Virus record (IMG/VR): IMGVR_UViG_3300045996_001510
Location: 1-28,769 of that record
DNA: 28,769 nt
Origin: a virus
Reading direction: 5' to 3' (one strand)
Made by a program: the position numbers and the translations under genes. The notes below the pieces were generated by a model. It did no database searches and had not been told where the DNA came from. It saw only the letters and a list, made by a program, of their open reading frames with translations. Shown here piece after piece: positions 2,851-28,769 of the stretch; position 1 is the stretch's first letter; every line of letters begins with the position of its first letter.

Positions 2851-2988
2851 TCACAAATCCGGCTGATCCTCGAACTCGTCCCCGCCGTCGATATCATCGT
2901 CGCAGCCGAATGCGCCGAAGATAGCCAGCAGCAGAACGCCCAGCAGTACGACCGCGCCCAGCACAAAACCGCCGATGAATGCGAACAT
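2851..2988 (-). CDS. 45-residue membrane protein of the lysis cassette, function unknown
   Basis: The protein has one hydrophobic segment (about residues 8-28, rich in Leu, Val and Gly) followed by a strongly acidic tail with Asp/Glu clusters. ATG 2988 is chosen because a perfect GGAGG lies seven bases upstream; longer in-frame versions would run through the lysozyme gene. It begins two bases after the lysozyme stop, so it is the last gene of the lysis operon. Position and topology would fit an accessory lysis factor such as a holin partner or inhibitor. There is no spanin-like coiled coil, and the Cys after the membrane segment does not make a convincing lipobox. No family is recognised. Confidence 0.65.
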   Translation of the reverse strand: MFAFIGGFVLGAVVLLGVLLLAIFGAFGCDDDIDGGDEFEDQPDL

Positions 2989-2990
2989 GA

Positions 2991-3446
2991 TCAGACCTCC
3001 ACTAGGACACATTCCGCGCCGCGCCGAAGGGTGAGCCCGCGCATCTCCCGGCCGCCGGCCTTGTTCCAGCGCATGATTTGGGGCGGCACCTCGTTCCACT
3101 CCCCCGCGTTGACCTTGCGGCGCAGCGTGGAGGCGGACAGGTTGCCGGTGCCCAGGTTGAACGAGAAGTCACACAGGGCAGCCAACCGGTGCGGTGTGTC
3201 TACGTTGGGGCAAAGGCGGATGGTCTTTGGCAGGAAATGCCGGCGCAGATGGAACACCAGAAGATCCTCTGCGCGCTGCCGGGTGATGGGCGGATCGGTG
3301 AGCTGCACCTTGCGGCCGTTCTCGTAGAAGGTGGCGCCGTAGCCGATGGTGGGCACACCGGCCGGGCACAGGTAAGGACGCAGGTACAGGCCCTCAAAGC
3401 GCCGACAGAGCGATGCGGCGAGATGCAGCACCAGCTCGAGATTCAT
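2991..3446 (-). CDS. Phage endolysin, GH24 (T4-type) lysozyme
   Basis: This enzyme cleaves the glycan of peptidoglycan at the end of infection. The 151-residue product has the T4-lysozyme active-site layout: Glu18 in RRFEG, then Cys27 and Thr33 in the segment CPAGVPTIGYGAT, with the same 9 and 6 residue spacing as the classic Glu-Asp-Thr triad. The middle catalytic Asp is replaced by Cys, a variant common in phage lysozymes with a CPAG motif. The N-terminus has no signal peptide or signal-anchor segment, so release should depend on a holin. The start is ATG 3446, whose first base overlaps the upstream stop (TGATG), indicating translational coupling. In-frame extension upstream to 3665 is a shadow of the neighbouring gene. 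Confidence 0.92.
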   Translation of the reverse strand: MNLELVLHLAASLCRRFEGLYLRPYLCPAGVPTIGYGATFYENGRKVQLTDPPITRQRAEDLLVFHLRRHFLPKTIRLCPNVDTPHRLAALCDFSFNLGTGNLSASTLRRKVNAGEWNEVPPQIMRWNKAGGREMRGLTLRRGAECVLVEV

Positions 3447-19662: not shown

Positions 19663-19894
19663 TGCTAACCTCTTGTGCAATAAACGCCTTAAGCATCCTT
19701 AGCGCACCCAGCGGCGCGTAGTGGACACCCCTCGTTTTGTCGTAATAACTTCCGGCCTGTAGGAAATTGAGCAGCCCATGAATCGGAGGTATGGGCCACC
19801 GCAGCCCAGCCCCATCCTCAATGTCCTCGTACATGAACCAAGCATCCCGTTCGATGTGGTAGACGATTGGAAAGCCAGGACCTTGGATAGCCAT
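19655..19894 (-). CDS. 79-residue phage protein, unknown
   Basis: A small soluble protein rich in aromatic residues (IVYHIERDAWFMYEDIEDG; GSYYDKTRGVHYAPLGALRM). ATG 19894 overlaps the co-chaperonin stop (TAATG) and has GGGGGA seven bases upstream; the stop overlaps the start region of the small terminase. The tight coupling places it in the packaging operon. No known family is recognised and no function is claimed. Confidence 0.65.
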   Translation of the reverse strand: MAIQGPGFPIVYHIERDAWFMYEDIEDGAGLRWPIPPIHGLLNFLQAGSYYDKTRGVHYAPLGALRMLKAFIAQEVSNG

Positions 19895-20226
19895 TACGAC
19901 ATCCCCCACGCCTTACGATTCTCGGTCGGCCCTATCTGGGCATCGTCCGGCAGGATGGCCATGATGTCGGCCTCACGCATGATGAGGTAATCCTTACCCT
20001 CAACCTTCTCATCCATCCCGGCGCGAAAGCTGAACAGCACGCGGTCGCCGGGCTGCACATCTGGTGTGTCCCGGTATTCCTTGCCGTCCTGCCCCCTGCG
20101 GAGCTTGCCGGGCCCAACATGGGTCACGCGCCCTACGTGCTGCTTGTGGTTAGCCAGGATCAGGCCGCCAGCGGTCGTCCCCTCTTCGGCTTCCACGAAT
20201 ACGATGTCATCAATTGGCCTGATCAT
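19894..20226 (-). CDS. GroES-type (Cpn10) co-chaperonin encoded by the phage
   Basis: The 110-residue protein has the Cpn10 layout. IRPIDDIVFVEAEE at residues 2-15 corresponds to the GroES opening IRPLHDRVIVKR. A mobile loop with AGGLILAN (19-26) puts Leu22-Ile23-Leu24 in the place of the GroEL-binding Ile-Val-Leu tripeptide. VGRVTHVGPGK, the strand VQPGDRVLFSF and the closing LIMREADIMAIL follow in order. It is slightly longer than GroES (97) because of an internal insertion and a tail after the last strand. It should cap host GroEL, perhaps to enlarge or alter folding of the coat or portal, as T4 gp31 does. It begins the packaging operon behind a possible promoter. Confidence 0.87.
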   Translation of the reverse strand: MIRPIDDIVFVEAEEGTTAGGLILANHKQHVGRVTHVGPGKLRRGQDGKEYRDTPDVQPGDRVLFSFRAGMDEKVEGKDYLIMREADIMAILPDDAQIGPTENRKAWGMS

Positions 20227-24969: not shown

Positions 24970-25164
24970 TTAGTGCTTGGGTTTGTGCTTCGCGGGCTGC
25001 TTGGACTGGAAAAGCTCAGGGTGTTCGAGCTTCACCTTGGCGGGGATGCCGCGGGCCATCCAGTTCTGGACGCGCTGGACTCCGCCCTGCTTAGGGAAAT
25101 TAAGGAGTTCGGCGACCCGAGTAGGGCCGCCAAGGCGCTGGATGATTTCGCTATCTACATGCAT
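24970..25164 (-). CDS. Cro-type repressor (YdaS-like helix-turn-helix)
   Basis: A 64-residue protein divergent from the repressor. It contains IIQRLGGPTRVAELLNFPKQ, then GGVQRVQNWMARGIPAKVKL, the pattern of small YdaS/Cro regulators. The recognition helix spans about residues 26-38, and a Lys/His-rich tail closes it. It should bind the same operators as the repressor and favour lytic growth. Transcription is from the PR-like promoter that holds an operator in its spacer. ATG 25164 lies about 30 bases from the predicted start of transcription. Confidence 0.85.
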   Translation of the reverse strand: MHVDSEIIQRLGGPTRVAELLNFPKQGGVQRVQNWMARGIPAKVKLEHPELFQSKQPAKHKPKH

Positions 25165-25193: not shown

Positions 25194-25222
25194 ATTAAAC
25201 ACGGTGTTTAAATGACTGTCAA
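25194..25222 (-). promoter_or_regulatory. PR-like early promoter
   Basis: On the minus strand, TTGACA (25222-25217), a 17-base spacer and TTTAAT (25199-25194) form a near-consensus promoter for the Cro-type gene and the early operon. A perfect operator palindrome covers the spacer and all but the last -10 base. Confidence 0.85.
25195..25211. promoter_or_regulatory. Operator palindrome in PR
   Basis: TTAAACACGGTGTTTAA is a perfect 17-base palindrome with one central base. Weaker matches to the same site lie at 25218-25234 (centre 23 bases away) and at 25233-25249 (AACATCATGTT core). Together they look like a three-part operator for the divergent repressor and Cro-type protein. Confidence 0.8.
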
Positions 25223-25235
25223 CGCCACGTGTAAC
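25207..25235 (+). promoter_or_regulatory. Possible repressor-maintenance promoter (PRM-like)
   Basis: TTTAAA (25207-25212), 17 bases and TGTAAC (25230-25235) are a weak but well-spaced promoter for the repressor. The PR operator ends one base short of the end of its -35, as expected if bound repressor also activates its own gene. Confidence 0.4.
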
Positions 25236-25268
25236 AACATCATGTTTAGTTGTGGCAGCCTACTAAAC

Positions 25269-25925
25269 ATGCATGAGCAAATGATCCGCCTTTACAAGGC
25301 AGCCAAGGAATTGAAAGGGGTAGAAGCCCCTTCGGATCTGGCTGATCTACTGAATGAATCCCCACAGACGATCAATAACTGGGAAAAACGCGGCATTTCC
25401 AAGGAGGGTCTTTTGGATGTCCCGGACATTATTGGATGCCGGTTAAAGTGGCTGAGATATGGCGTTGGCCCCATGCATTTAGATGCTTTGCCGCGCCCCG
25501 GCGAGATTGCCGTCCCCCAATACGAAACCGGCGGCATGGGCGGCACCAACGGCCTAATCCTCAAGGATCAGCCCGGCGTTATCCGGGATTGGGTTGTCAG
25601 CCCGGAATGGCTCCGCGCCAACGTCCCGCTCTACTCCAGTCTCGGTAATCTATGTCTGGTAACGGGCTTTGGCGACTCCATGCCAGACCTCTACAACCCA
25701 GGCGACCCGGTCTTGGTCGATAAGGGCGTGCGGGCGTTTGACGGGGATGGGATCTACTTTTTCCGGATTGGCAACGTGGGCTTTATCAAGCGCCTGCAGC
25801 AGATCGGTACCAGCCTCCGGGTGATCTCGCAGAACAAGGAATATGAGCCTTGGACCATGCCAGAAGACGCCGACTTTGAGGTGCTGGCCAAGGTGCTGAA
25901 GGCGTGGAAAAGTCGGAACATCTAA
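25269..25925 (+). CDS. Lysogeny repressor with S24-type C-terminal domain
   Basis: A 218-residue repressor. The N-terminal helix-turn-helix is at about 20-45 (SDLADLLNESPQTINNWEKR). The C-terminal LexA/S24-like domain has Ser137 in GFGDSMPDLYNPGD and Lys174 in VGFIKRL, the expected catalytic pair. No Ala-Gly or Cys-Gly dipeptide occurs anywhere, so the usual self-cleavage site is absent. ATG 25269 fits the start of related repressors but has no ribosome site; ATG 25242, close to the predicted PRM start, could be used leaderless as in lambda cI. It probably represses PR and PL and leads the lysogeny operon. Confidence 0.88.
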   Translation: MHEQMIRLYKAAKELKGVEAPSDLADLLNESPQTINNWEKRGISKEGLLDVPDIIGCRLKWLRYGVGPMHLDALPRPGEIAVPQYETGGMGGTNGLILKDQPGVIRDWVVSPEWLRANVPLYSSLGNLCLVTGFGDSMPDLYNPGDPVLVDKGVRAFDGDGIYFFRIGNVGFIKRLQQIGTSLRVISQNKEYEPWTMPEDADFEVLAKVLKAWKSRNI

Positions 25926-25937
25926 AGAGGGGAAGCG

Positions 25938-26348
25938 ATGAAAAAGTGGATTCCCTTGGCGGCGCTGCTGCTAGCAGCTTGCACCCAGCATCAATGGGTA
26001 AACCAGACTGCCAATGACCCCGGGGCGCTGAATATTGCATCGGGCGAATGCACAGCAGAGTCCTACAAAGTCGTCCCCGTCCCCCGGCTTCAAGAGCCTG
26101 CACGCCCTGTCTATGGGGCTGCCCCGCAGTACAAGACCGATTACCAGCTGCAGAGCAGCAGCGGCGCCAGAATAACCGGAACATCCACGACAACCGCACA
26201 AAACGACATGTGGCTTAAGCAGCAGGAATACCAAGCTGCGAAGTCAGCCCATGACAGCCAGCTACGCCGGGCCTCGCTGGCAAGACAGAGGGTCTTCAAT
26301 GGCTGTATGCAGGCTAAGGGCTGGGCATACGTTAAGGTTGAGCGGTAA
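25938..26348 (+). CDS. Prophage lipoprotein, probable lysogenic-conversion factor
   Basis: The N-terminus MKKWIPLAALLLAAC is a clear lipoprotein signal with a Leu-Ala-Ala-Cys lipobox and Cys15 as the lipid site. The mature part is hydrophilic, with a Ser/Thr-rich centre and a helical end carrying FNGCMQAKGWAYVKV. Residue +2 is Thr, so outer-membrane delivery is expected. It starts 12 bases after the repressor stop behind AGAGGGGAAG and is probably made in the lysogen. Phage lipoproteins in this setting often block receptor use or DNA entry by related phages; here that is only an inference. Confidence 0.8.
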   Translation: MKKWIPLAALLLAACTQHQWVNQTANDPGALNIASGECTAESYKVVPVPRLQEPARPVYGAAPQYKTDYQLQSSSGARITGTSTTTAQNDMWLKQQEYQAAKSAHDSQLRRASLARQRVFNGCMQAKGWAYVKVER

Positions 26349-26375
26349 GCCGCCGATTAGAAAGTGGAAGGAAAA

Positions 26376-26681
26376 ATGAGCGAAGAAAAAAGGCCAACAA
26401 CCTTTGAGACGGCTCAAGACCTCACGGGCACAGAAGTGGGAACGGTGCTGGAAGATGTGGGCGCCGTCATTGTGTGTGAGTCATGCGAGCGAGGGAAATA
26501 TGAGGTTGGGTGCATGGGGCCGCGAGCTGTACCAGTAGCCTTACCCATCCCCCCTGAGAATGAGCAGGCGCTTTGGTTCTTCACGGCAATATGTTCTAAC
26601 TGTGGCCATACCCGATTCTATTTTGCCCCCTTCATAGCCCAGAAAATTATAGAAAAGCGAGGCAGCAATAGTGACAAATAG
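26376..26681 (+). CDS. Small zinc-ribbon protein of the lysogeny operon
   Basis: A 101-residue protein with two CxxC knuckles, Cys34-x2-Cys37 and Cys73-x2-Cys76, plus Cys46, separated by a Pro-rich segment. LWFFTAICSNCGHTRFYF gives the second knuckle the look of a ribbon. ATG 26376 follows AAGG; GTG 26364 is a weaker choice. It lies between the lipoprotein and membrane-protein genes on the repressor transcript. Zinc-ribbon proteins of this type bind nucleic acid or protein. The function here is unknown. Confidence 0.7.
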   Translation: MSEEKRPTTFETAQDLTGTEVGTVLEDVGAVIVCESCERGKYEVGCMGPRAVPVALPIPPENEQALWFFTAICSNCGHTRFYFAPFIAQKIIEKRGSNSDK

Positions 26682-27042
26682 CATCATTGAAGGGGCATTC
26701 CCGTACCGTGACAACGGCGGGAATAGGGGCCAGAATGGTGGAAACCCACCTGAGGGCCCATCTATGGAAGCCCGCGTAGCGACCCTAGAGGCGCGGCTAG
26801 ACTCGACGTTACCGAACTTGGCAACTAAGGCCGACCTCCATCAGTCCACTGCCAGCATGATTAAATGGGTTGGCGGCATCGGCATAGCTATCGCCTCTCT
26901 CTTGGTGACTGCATTCATAACCTTGTACAACAAGGTCGATGATGCTCCAGCGGCCCAGTCCACACAGAGCGCGCCCATCATCATCCAGGTTCCGGCCTAT
27001 CAGGCTCCAGCCGCCCCCGTCGCGCCAAGCGGTCAGAAATAA
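26671..27042 (+). CDS. Coiled-coil membrane protein of the lysogeny operon
   Basis: A 123-residue protein. A Gly/Asn-rich start is followed by a short coiled coil (MEARVATLEARLDSTLPNLA, about 32-51), one membrane helix (about 64-86) and a Pro/Ala/Gln-rich tail. GTG 26671 overlaps the zinc-ribbon gene by 11 bases with GAGG upstream. The architecture recalls XhlA-like or other prophage membrane proteins. Being transcribed with the repressor, it may act in the lysogen, for example in exclusion, but this is not shown. Confidence 0.7.
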   Translation: MTNSIIEGAFPYRDNGGNRGQNGGNPPEGPSMEARVATLEARLDSTLPNLATKADLHQSTASMIKWVGGIGIAIASLLVTAFITLYNKVDDAPAAQSTQSAPIIIQVPAYQAPAAPVAPSGQK

Positions 27043-27061
27043 CACTTCTCCATAAATCGCG

Positions 27062-27084
27062 GCCCGCCAAGTGCGGGCTTTTTT
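27062..27084 (+). terminator. Terminator of the lysogeny operon
   Basis: A 6-bp GC stem (GCCCGC/GCGGGC) with a five-base loop is followed by six T's, 20 bases after the last stop. On the minus strand no T-run follows, so it acts only on the rightward transcript. Confidence 0.9.
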
Positions 27085-27088
27085 GCGC

Positions 27089-27286
27089 CTACTCCGGCCT
27101 CTCCGTCAGGCTCTCCCGCCAATCACCGGTATAGCCAAAGCTCGGGGCACCTATCGACTCCGCGAACCAGAAGTCGGTAAAGGCCGCCACGTCTGGCGTG
27201 CAGTACCAGTGCGCCTGCCCATTCGCATCTACCGCCCACCACCGCGCCCGCTTAGGGGCCTGTCGCCAGTCCACGTCCTTGTGCAT
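27089..27286 (-). CDS. 65-residue Trp-rich phage protein, unknown
   Basis: A convergent minus-strand gene of 65 codons. It is rich in aromatic residues: DWRQAPKRARWWAVDANGQA, then HWYCTPDVAAFTDFWFAE. The opening resembles small phage proteins in which a WWAxDxxGxxxWY core is conserved but uncharacterised. ATG 27286 has GGGAG seven bases upstream. It is transcribed away from the PL-like promoter and has no terminator of its own that I can see. Confidence 0.6.
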   Translation of the reverse strand: MHKDVDWRQAPKRARWWAVDANGQAHWYCTPDVAAFTDFWFAESIGAPSFGYTGDWRESLTERPE

Positions 27287-27422
27287 TGCCGTCTCCCTCG
27301 CTGCTTGAGTCCAGATTAGCACCCATCCCCCGTCACACACATCACGCCCCTCCCCTCTCGCGGGTTTGGTGTCGATGGGCGCCTGCTAATGACTGCTCGG
27401 TCACAAATATTAAACGCCATGA

Positions 27423-27439
27423 ATAAACGTAGTGTTGAT
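27423..27439. promoter_or_regulatory. Second operator at PL
   Basis: ATAAACGTAGTGTTGAT matches the operator consensus imperfectly and covers five of the six PL -35 bases. Its centre is 23 bases from that of the main PL operator. A further half-conserved site lies at 27410-27426. Confidence 0.6.
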
Positions 27440-27463
27440 AATTAAATAAACGTGGTGTTTAAT
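27435..27463 (+). promoter_or_regulatory. PL-like early promoter with operator in spacer
   Basis: TTGATA (27435-27440), 17 bases and TTTAAT (27458-27463) start the rightward early operon. The operator ATAAACGTGGTGTTTAA (27446-27462) covers the spacer and five of six -10 bases, exactly as in PR. An 8-base inverted repeat (CTCCATCG/CGATGGAG, 27466-27493) follows and holds the ribosome site of the first gene. The remaining bases of 27287-27500 show nothing more. Confidence 0.85.
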
Positions 27464-27500
27464 CACTCCATCGAATCGCCGCACACGATGGAGAAGAAGA

Positions 27501-28154: not shown

Positions 28155-28769
28155 GTGACGAAGAAGAAAGCAGAGGTCATCACGACCTACAAGGGTTTCG
28201 ACAAGAATCTGGCCTGCCGTGGCTTTCAGTACGAGTTCGGCAAGACCTACGTGCACGACGGCGAAGTCAAGGCCTGCAACGGCGGCTTTCATGCCTGCGA
28301 GTACCCACTGGATGTATTCGCCTATTACGCGCCCGCCGACAACCGCTTCGCCCTGGTTGAGCAGAGCGGCGACCTCTCGCGCCATGGCGACGACAGCAAG
28401 ATCGCGAGCCGCAGCATCACGGTCAAGGCCGAAATCAATCTGGCCGACATCATCAAGGCGGCGATTGAGTACACCACGAAGCGTTGCGATCCGGCCAAGG
28501 CTGCGCACACCAAGGGCAACGGGCTTGCCAACGCCACAACCGGAACCAGGTCCGCGAGCAGCGCCACCGGGGACAGCTCCGCGAGCAGCGCCACCGGGGA
28601 CAGGTCCGCGAGCAGCGCCACCGGAACCAGCTCCGCGAGCAGCGCCACCGGGGACAGGTCCGCGAGCAGCGCCACCGGGGACAGCTCCGCGAGCAGCGCC
28701 ACCGGGGACAGGTCCGCGAGCAGCGCCACCGGGGACAGCTCCGCGAGCAGCGCCACCGGGGACAGGTCC
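28155..28769 (+). CDS. DUF7666-like repeat protein, cut by the window edge
   Basis: An incomplete gene of at least 205 codons with no stop. The first 125 residues match a phage domain that I recognise as DUF7666-like: TTYKGFDKNLACRGFQYEFG, then KACNGGFHACEYPLDVFAYY, EQSGDLS and SKIASRSITVKAEI. After this the sequence turns into nine-residue repeats, SASSATGDR and SASSATGDS in alternation. Relatives carry similar Ala/Ser/Gly repeats that may form a beta-solenoid or flexible stalk. GTG 28155 is preferred since AGGGG lies seven bases upstream; ATG 28149 is too close to it. The function is unknown. Confidence 0.78.
   Translation, partial: MTKKKAEVITTYKGFDKNLACRGFQYEFGKTYVHDGEVKACNGGFHACEYPLDVFAYYAPADNRFALVEQSGDLSRHGDDSKIASRSITVKAEINLADIIKAAIEYTTKRCDPAKAAHTKGNGLANATTGTRSASSATGDSSASSATGDRSASSATGTSSASSATGDRSASSATGDSSASSATGDRSASSATGDSSASSATGDRS
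28548..28769 (+). repeat. 27-bp tandem repeats (54-bp higher-order unit)
   Basis: Eight complete 27-base units and part of a ninth follow one another to the window edge. Odd units start AGGTCC and even units AGCTCC, giving an alternating Arg/Ser in the protein and a 54-base super-period. Seven units end GGGGAC; the third ends GGAACC, as does the degenerate piece before the array at 28530-28547. Confidence 0.95.

Follow-up and report, generated by a model that had tools for sequence, protein, structure and literature searches.

The two-cluster immunity switch is a well-known arrangement, as in phage lambda, where CI and Cro are divergent and 17-bp operators are found with O1 and O2 spaced by 23-24 bp. 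In lambda, OR2 is centred 42 bp 5' of the leaderless cI start, and from there CI contacts RNA polymerase. In HK022 and phiKO2, repressor clusters flank the repressor gene and looping was shown in vivo (PMC8053113). The PaaR2/YdaS/YdaT system of CP-933P, from E. coli O157:H7, sets a leaderless CI-like repressor against a YdaS-type Cro, both of which bind the same intergenic repeats (PMC8630535). At immB of PY54, the cI and cro transcripts are leaderless and only one operator can be recognised (PMC4488713).

The window, meaning the whole stretch of DNA analysed here, is an IMG/VR fragment of 28.8 kb from a temperate phage whose portal, scaffold and head-closure genes are P22-like; its replication genes are on the minus strand. 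Judged from sequence, its immunity region (Table 1) is very probably a lambdoid CI/Cro switch: one operator cluster lies between divergent CI-type and Cro-type genes, and a second cluster of the same type is found at an early promoter past the repressor operon. The switch is a widely shared new variant of the lambda arrangement. It has the divergent CI and Cro genes, the 17-bp operators and the O1-O2 spacing of lambda OR and OL, and an OR2-type site 42-43 bp before a cI gene predicted to be leaderless (43 bp in the window). The OL-like cluster past the repressor operon is 2.25 kb away, compared with 2.3 kb in lambda (PMC5880393, PMC8053113). Unlike in lambda, O3 lies 15 bp from O2 instead of 23 bp, so that it would cover the -35 and spacer of the repressor promoter and not the -10 as in lambda PRM; the proximal cluster is thus no lambda OR proper, with three operators at a spacing of about 23-24 bp. 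Further differences are that relatives of the window usually lack the distal third site, that the Cro may be of the YdaS kind, that no cII, which lambda-type establishment would place after cro, is recognised (no CII family match among the ORFs tested) and that the operator sequences are unrelated. The starts of cI and cro are 104 bp apart here and 97 bp apart in CP-933P, in which four equally spaced 18-bp repeats and toxin-antitoxin genes in the repressor operon set it apart (PMC8630535). The CP-933P half-site GTTTAGTAA looks similar to GTTTAA here. HK022 and phiKO2, like the window, have clusters flanking the repressor gene and differ in operator sequences and arrangements, with clusters about 700 and 630 bp apart (PMC8053113). 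Leaderless cI and cro, as in PY54, are predicted for many relatives of the window; that phage differs in its single recognisable operator.

Table 1. Features of the immunity region and neighbouring early genes in the window
Feature	Position	Strand	Remarks
Cro-type protein, 64 aa, PHROG 8008 / YdaS-like	24970..25164	-	Related to repressor HTH
Early cro promoter (PR equivalent), TTGACA-17-TTTAAT	25194..25222	-	-35 25222-25217, -10 25199-25194; conserved in relatives
O1 operator, TTAAACACGGTGTTTAA	25195..25211	.	Perfect 8-bp arms; on -10 and spacer of cro promoter
O2 operator, centre 25226	25218..25234	.	Overlaps cro-promoter -35; centre 43 bp 5' of cI ATG
O3 operator, centre 25241	25233..25249	.	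On -35/spacer of putative repressor promoter
Putative repressor-maintenance promoter (PRM equivalent)	25233..25268	+	-10 position by comparison with relatives
CI-type repressor, 218 aa	25269..25925	+	Phage_CI_repr-like HTH and Peptidase_S24 domain
Lysogeny operon after cI	25938..27042	+	Three ORFs: 25938-26348, 26364-26681, 26671-27042
Lipoprotein-like ORF	25938-26348	+	Second gene of lysogeny operon
Zn-ribbon-like ORF	26364-26681	+	
Membrane-type ORF	26671-27042	+	
Intrinsic-terminator-like hairpin and T run	27061..27084	+	3' of lysogeny operon
O3', degenerate third distal site, centre 27418	27410..27426	.	By site model; same offset in few relatives
O2' operator, centre 27431	27423..27439	.	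Overlaps distal -35
Distal early promoter (PL equivalent), TTGATA-17-TTTAAT	27435..27463	+	-35 27435-27440, -10 27458-27463
O1' operator, ATAAACGTGGTGTTTAA	27446..27462	.	On distal promoter
Inverted repeat CTCCATCG-N12-CGATGGAG	27466..27493	+	Just 3' of distal -10
First distal early operon gene, 108 aa	27501-27827	+	Read rightwards from distal early promoter

The first-pass annotation had proposed two opposite-strand promoters of the form TTGA(C/T)A-17-TTTAAT with superimposable operator clusters, and all of its coordinates were verified in the sequence. By analogy with lambda, the promoter at 25.2 kb, which would drive cro, is named PR and that at 27.4 kb PL. Both have TTTAAT, without the usual A at position 2 of the -10, and a standard promoter scan therefore lists neither. 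The palindromes do cover five -10 bases as proposed, but only 12 of the 17 spacer bases and not the whole spacer. The second sites proved to be centred exactly 23 bp from O1 and O1', and the third sites, expected 13-15 bp further out, lie 15 bp beyond O2 and 13 bp beyond O2'; the two clusters can thus be superimposed for O1 and O2 and not for the third site. Since O2 and O2' each span five of the six -35 bases, O1 and O2 together span both promoter elements on each side.

That the six sites are of one operator type was borne out by a site model that never saw the window. This model was trained on the O1 of 39 distinct relatives, which were retrieved by repressor protein only and in which palindromy upstream of the start was the sole criterion for O1; the six sites took ranks 1 to 6 over all positions of the window. 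A second training set, retrieved in part with a pattern derived from the window's own O1 sites, gave an identical top-six ranking. In shuffles of the window, the exact palindrome pattern with up to 3 mismatches was expected 0 times. The proximal O2 (8.6 bits, compared with a mean of 10.2 for the best chance site of a shuffled window) is accepted as real because its position is fixed in relatives, and not because of its score. Additionally, a composite promoter/operator pattern, which carries no protein information, matched 79 IMG/VR stretches, versus 2 matched by the same pattern reversed. In most of the 79 an adjacent gene encodes a repressor with the same DNA-binding domain, and several others are short pieces.

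The same layout was found in more than 80 distinct relatives, which establishes it as real and shared. After retrieval by protein only, the proximal O1 was present upstream of the repressor in 46/46 distinct loci and the distal cluster in 42 of the 44 loci whose flank extends for 1.3 kb or more. O1 and O2 are spaced by 24 bp in 59 loci and by 23 bp in 17 (76 of 82 distinct loci), O3 lies 14-15 bp beyond O2 in 66/82 (background 0.0009) and the distal pair is spaced by 23-25 bp in 64 of 65 relatives, only 6-7 of which have the distal third site at the 13-bp offset. The divergent neighbour in the relatives is the cro gene. A match between the 23- or 24-bp spacings of one phage's two clusters (Fisher p 1.6e-5 as tabulated) was discarded, because only one independent pair lies on well-supported branches of the tree.

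Shewanella phage vB_Sb_QDWS, a possible laboratory model, also has the array, as do genomes belonging to the order of Curvibacter. When 399 genomes from that order were scanned with the strict pattern there was no match, but a protein profile matched 6 of 200, so the strict pattern overlooks close variants. A phage DNA search returned nothing closely related to the immunity region of the window, and a literature text search with the operator sequence returned no relevant paper. Environmental viral contigs commonly encode the repressor family and records of cultured phages hardly ever do, with 5 matches in the phage collection; the array provides a readable and conserved operator code for it. 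Two records of equal length (47,902) carry the same repressor match, OK094664.1 (Shewanella phage vB_Sb_QDWS) and OP650936.1 (Hujiaoplasma phage zrk29-1); their stated hosts belong to different phyla, which makes one host assignment doubtful.

The protein sequence places the repressor in the lambda CI type, that is, an HTH followed by a C-terminal domain of the self-cleaving S24 type (Pfam S24 match, E 1.8e-16), with cleavage predicted. Its structure model (mean pLDDT 90) resembles 186 CI, LexA and the lambda CI C-terminal domain, the last with a TM of 0.71 by target. The Cro-type protein matches the DNA-binding protein family PHROG 8008 (E 4e-20) and, at E 0.014, which is weaker than Pfam's cut-off, the YdaS family PF15943; the HTHs of Cro and CI align. 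Among 78 complete relatives, the S24-type domain is present in 59 and absent from 19, and this trait requires 13 changes on the tree of DNA-binding domains; an earlier count, with part of the S24 set left out, gave 11 changes, 5 of them forced by well-supported branches. The scores of O1, O2 and O3 do not differ between relatives with and without S24. By sequence comparison, C-terminal domains of either kind have been swapped repeatedly and the operators have stayed fixed. The same array is served by repressors with and without the lambda-type domain, which makes it a natural test case for what cooperativity and looping require.

In 74 of 81 loci, O1 lies 64-68 bp from the cI start, only 5/81 have an SD-like sequence before cI, and relatives carry a GANAAT-like -10 located 8-13 nt 5' of the cI ATG. 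The repressor mRNA is probably leaderless, with O2 about 42-43 bp before its start. At the corresponding position the window has a weak CAGCCT, as opposed to GANAAT in relatives, and no recognisable -35; the weak -10 fits an activated promoter and proves nothing. In the window cro has a leader of some 24 nt, but roughly half of the relatives have an almost leaderless cro.

The proposal of a lambda-style two-cluster switch is strongly supported by the conserved geometry of O1, O2 and O3, the distal O1' and O2' and the linkage of the operators to one repressor family, and as a reading of the region it appears mostly right. The missing A in both TTTAAT elements, and the weak repressor -10 and unrecognisable -35 of the window, count against it. 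We infer from sequence that the CI-type repressor would bind the single type of 17-bp palindrome as a dimer, as well as the order in which the sites fill and where transcription starts. From O1 and O2, CI would silence the cro promoter by occupying its -10 and -35, and from O1' and O2' it would do the same to the distal early promoter; with the same coverage at both, one protein would silence both lytic operons. From O2, CI probably activates its own weak promoter. Because O3 overlaps this putative promoter, Cro or excess CI bound there would stop repressor synthesis. The Cro-type protein, whose HTH is related to that of CI, probably recognises these sites too and would tip the switch to lysis; its binding to the operators is predicted from homology only.

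Cooperativity and looping between the two clusters are plausible, and the chances are about even that a CI-bridged loop could form across 2.25 kb. Pairing of neighbouring dimers in the lambda manner is doubtful between O2 and O3, which are only 15 bp apart. With a probability falling just short of even, there would be two clusters merely because two promoters need repression, with neither a loop nor cooperation between clusters. In favour of this reading, the cluster distance, 2251 bp in the window, ranges from 679 to 3394 bp (median 1365) in relatives, most of which have no distal third site, and relatives without the S24 domain retain the same array. A test for 10.5-bp helical phasing of these distances across relatives found none, which also favours it; phasing is, however, unnecessary for kb-scale loops, and its absence does not decide on cooperativity or looping. 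HK022 and phiKO2, moreover, loop despite different operator sets (PMC8053113).

A different assembly on the same operators, in which the repressor would form a 186-type higher oligomer (a wheel of dimers) gathering several sites, in place of dimer pairs and an octamer loop, seems unlikely. It draws on the DNA-binding domain, which matches the Phage_CI_repr family, to which 186 CI belongs, and on a Foldseek search with the full-length repressor model, in which 186 CI was the best PDB match and the lambda-186 hybrid repressor was among the top matches. However, the E-values for LexA, 186 and lambda are only a few orders of magnitude apart and the full-length superpositions are poor, and the O1-O2 spacing of 23-24 bp is that of lambda. 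The hybrid lambda-186 CI loops OL-OR in vivo (PMC8053113), a point in favour of such an oligomer which also implies that exchange of the C-terminal domain need not abolish looping. A broader proposal, possible and put forward tentatively, is that a large clade of phages, most of them uncultured, retains a fixed array (O1, O2 at 23-24, O3 at 14-15 and distal O1'/O2') and has repeatedly exchanged the repressor C-terminal domain, including for short domains without a recognisable S24 fold. In that case the DNA layout would dictate cooperativity and looping and could accommodate several unrelated oligomerising domains, and a phage could switch between SOS-inducible and non-inducible immunity with its operators unchanged.

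It is very improbable that the Cro/YdaS-type protein is the main user of the palindromes, with CI on other sites. The Cro HTH is related to that of CI and cro is the divergent neighbour in relatives, but the operators go with the CI family, by which the loci were searched, O2 and O3 lie at fixed distances from the cI start, and in CP-933P both proteins bind one region (PMC8630535). Finally, chance or mere AT-rich promoter sequence, which would account for some similarity, since the operator arm GTTTAA includes the -10 and TTTAAT is nearly invariant, is effectively ruled out by the shuffles, the reversed pattern, the protein-only retrieval and the window-independent site model.

Just downstream of the distal -10, the right arm of the inverted repeat contains the GGAG ribosome site of the first distal early gene. 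Across 65 relatives, each arm fits its own partner better than arms from other loci (0/5000 permutations, z 7), and a downstream control was negative. In 19 loci a strong stem contains an SD-like sequence beside the start codon. The left arm starts 3-6 nt before the canonical transcription start (-6 to -3), and two readings are therefore kept: either transcription starts earlier and the repeat forms an RNA hairpin, or the repeat is a DNA site. By eye, CTCC...GGAG-like inverted repeats were also seen ahead of the homologue of ORF 27501-27827 in L197 (~2895-2945), L193 (~2950-2990) and L188 (~2960-3000), three loci with other promoters and no operator of the window's type.

In the lysogeny operon, the lipoprotein-like product carries a LAAC lipobox and may be encoded by a superinfection or lysogenic-conversion gene. 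The hairpin that follows the operon is, by itself, not above the count expected by chance. Between this putative terminator and the distal operators, a minus-strand ORF (27089-27340; PHROG 14495, E 4e-9) is directed back toward the operon. Elsewhere in the window, a phage-encoded homologue of the GroES co-chaperonin (PHROG 3188; 19894-20226, minus strand) is located near the terminase, and a tandem coding repeat of SASSATGDS/R units (28530-28769, plus strand) continues past the fragment end.
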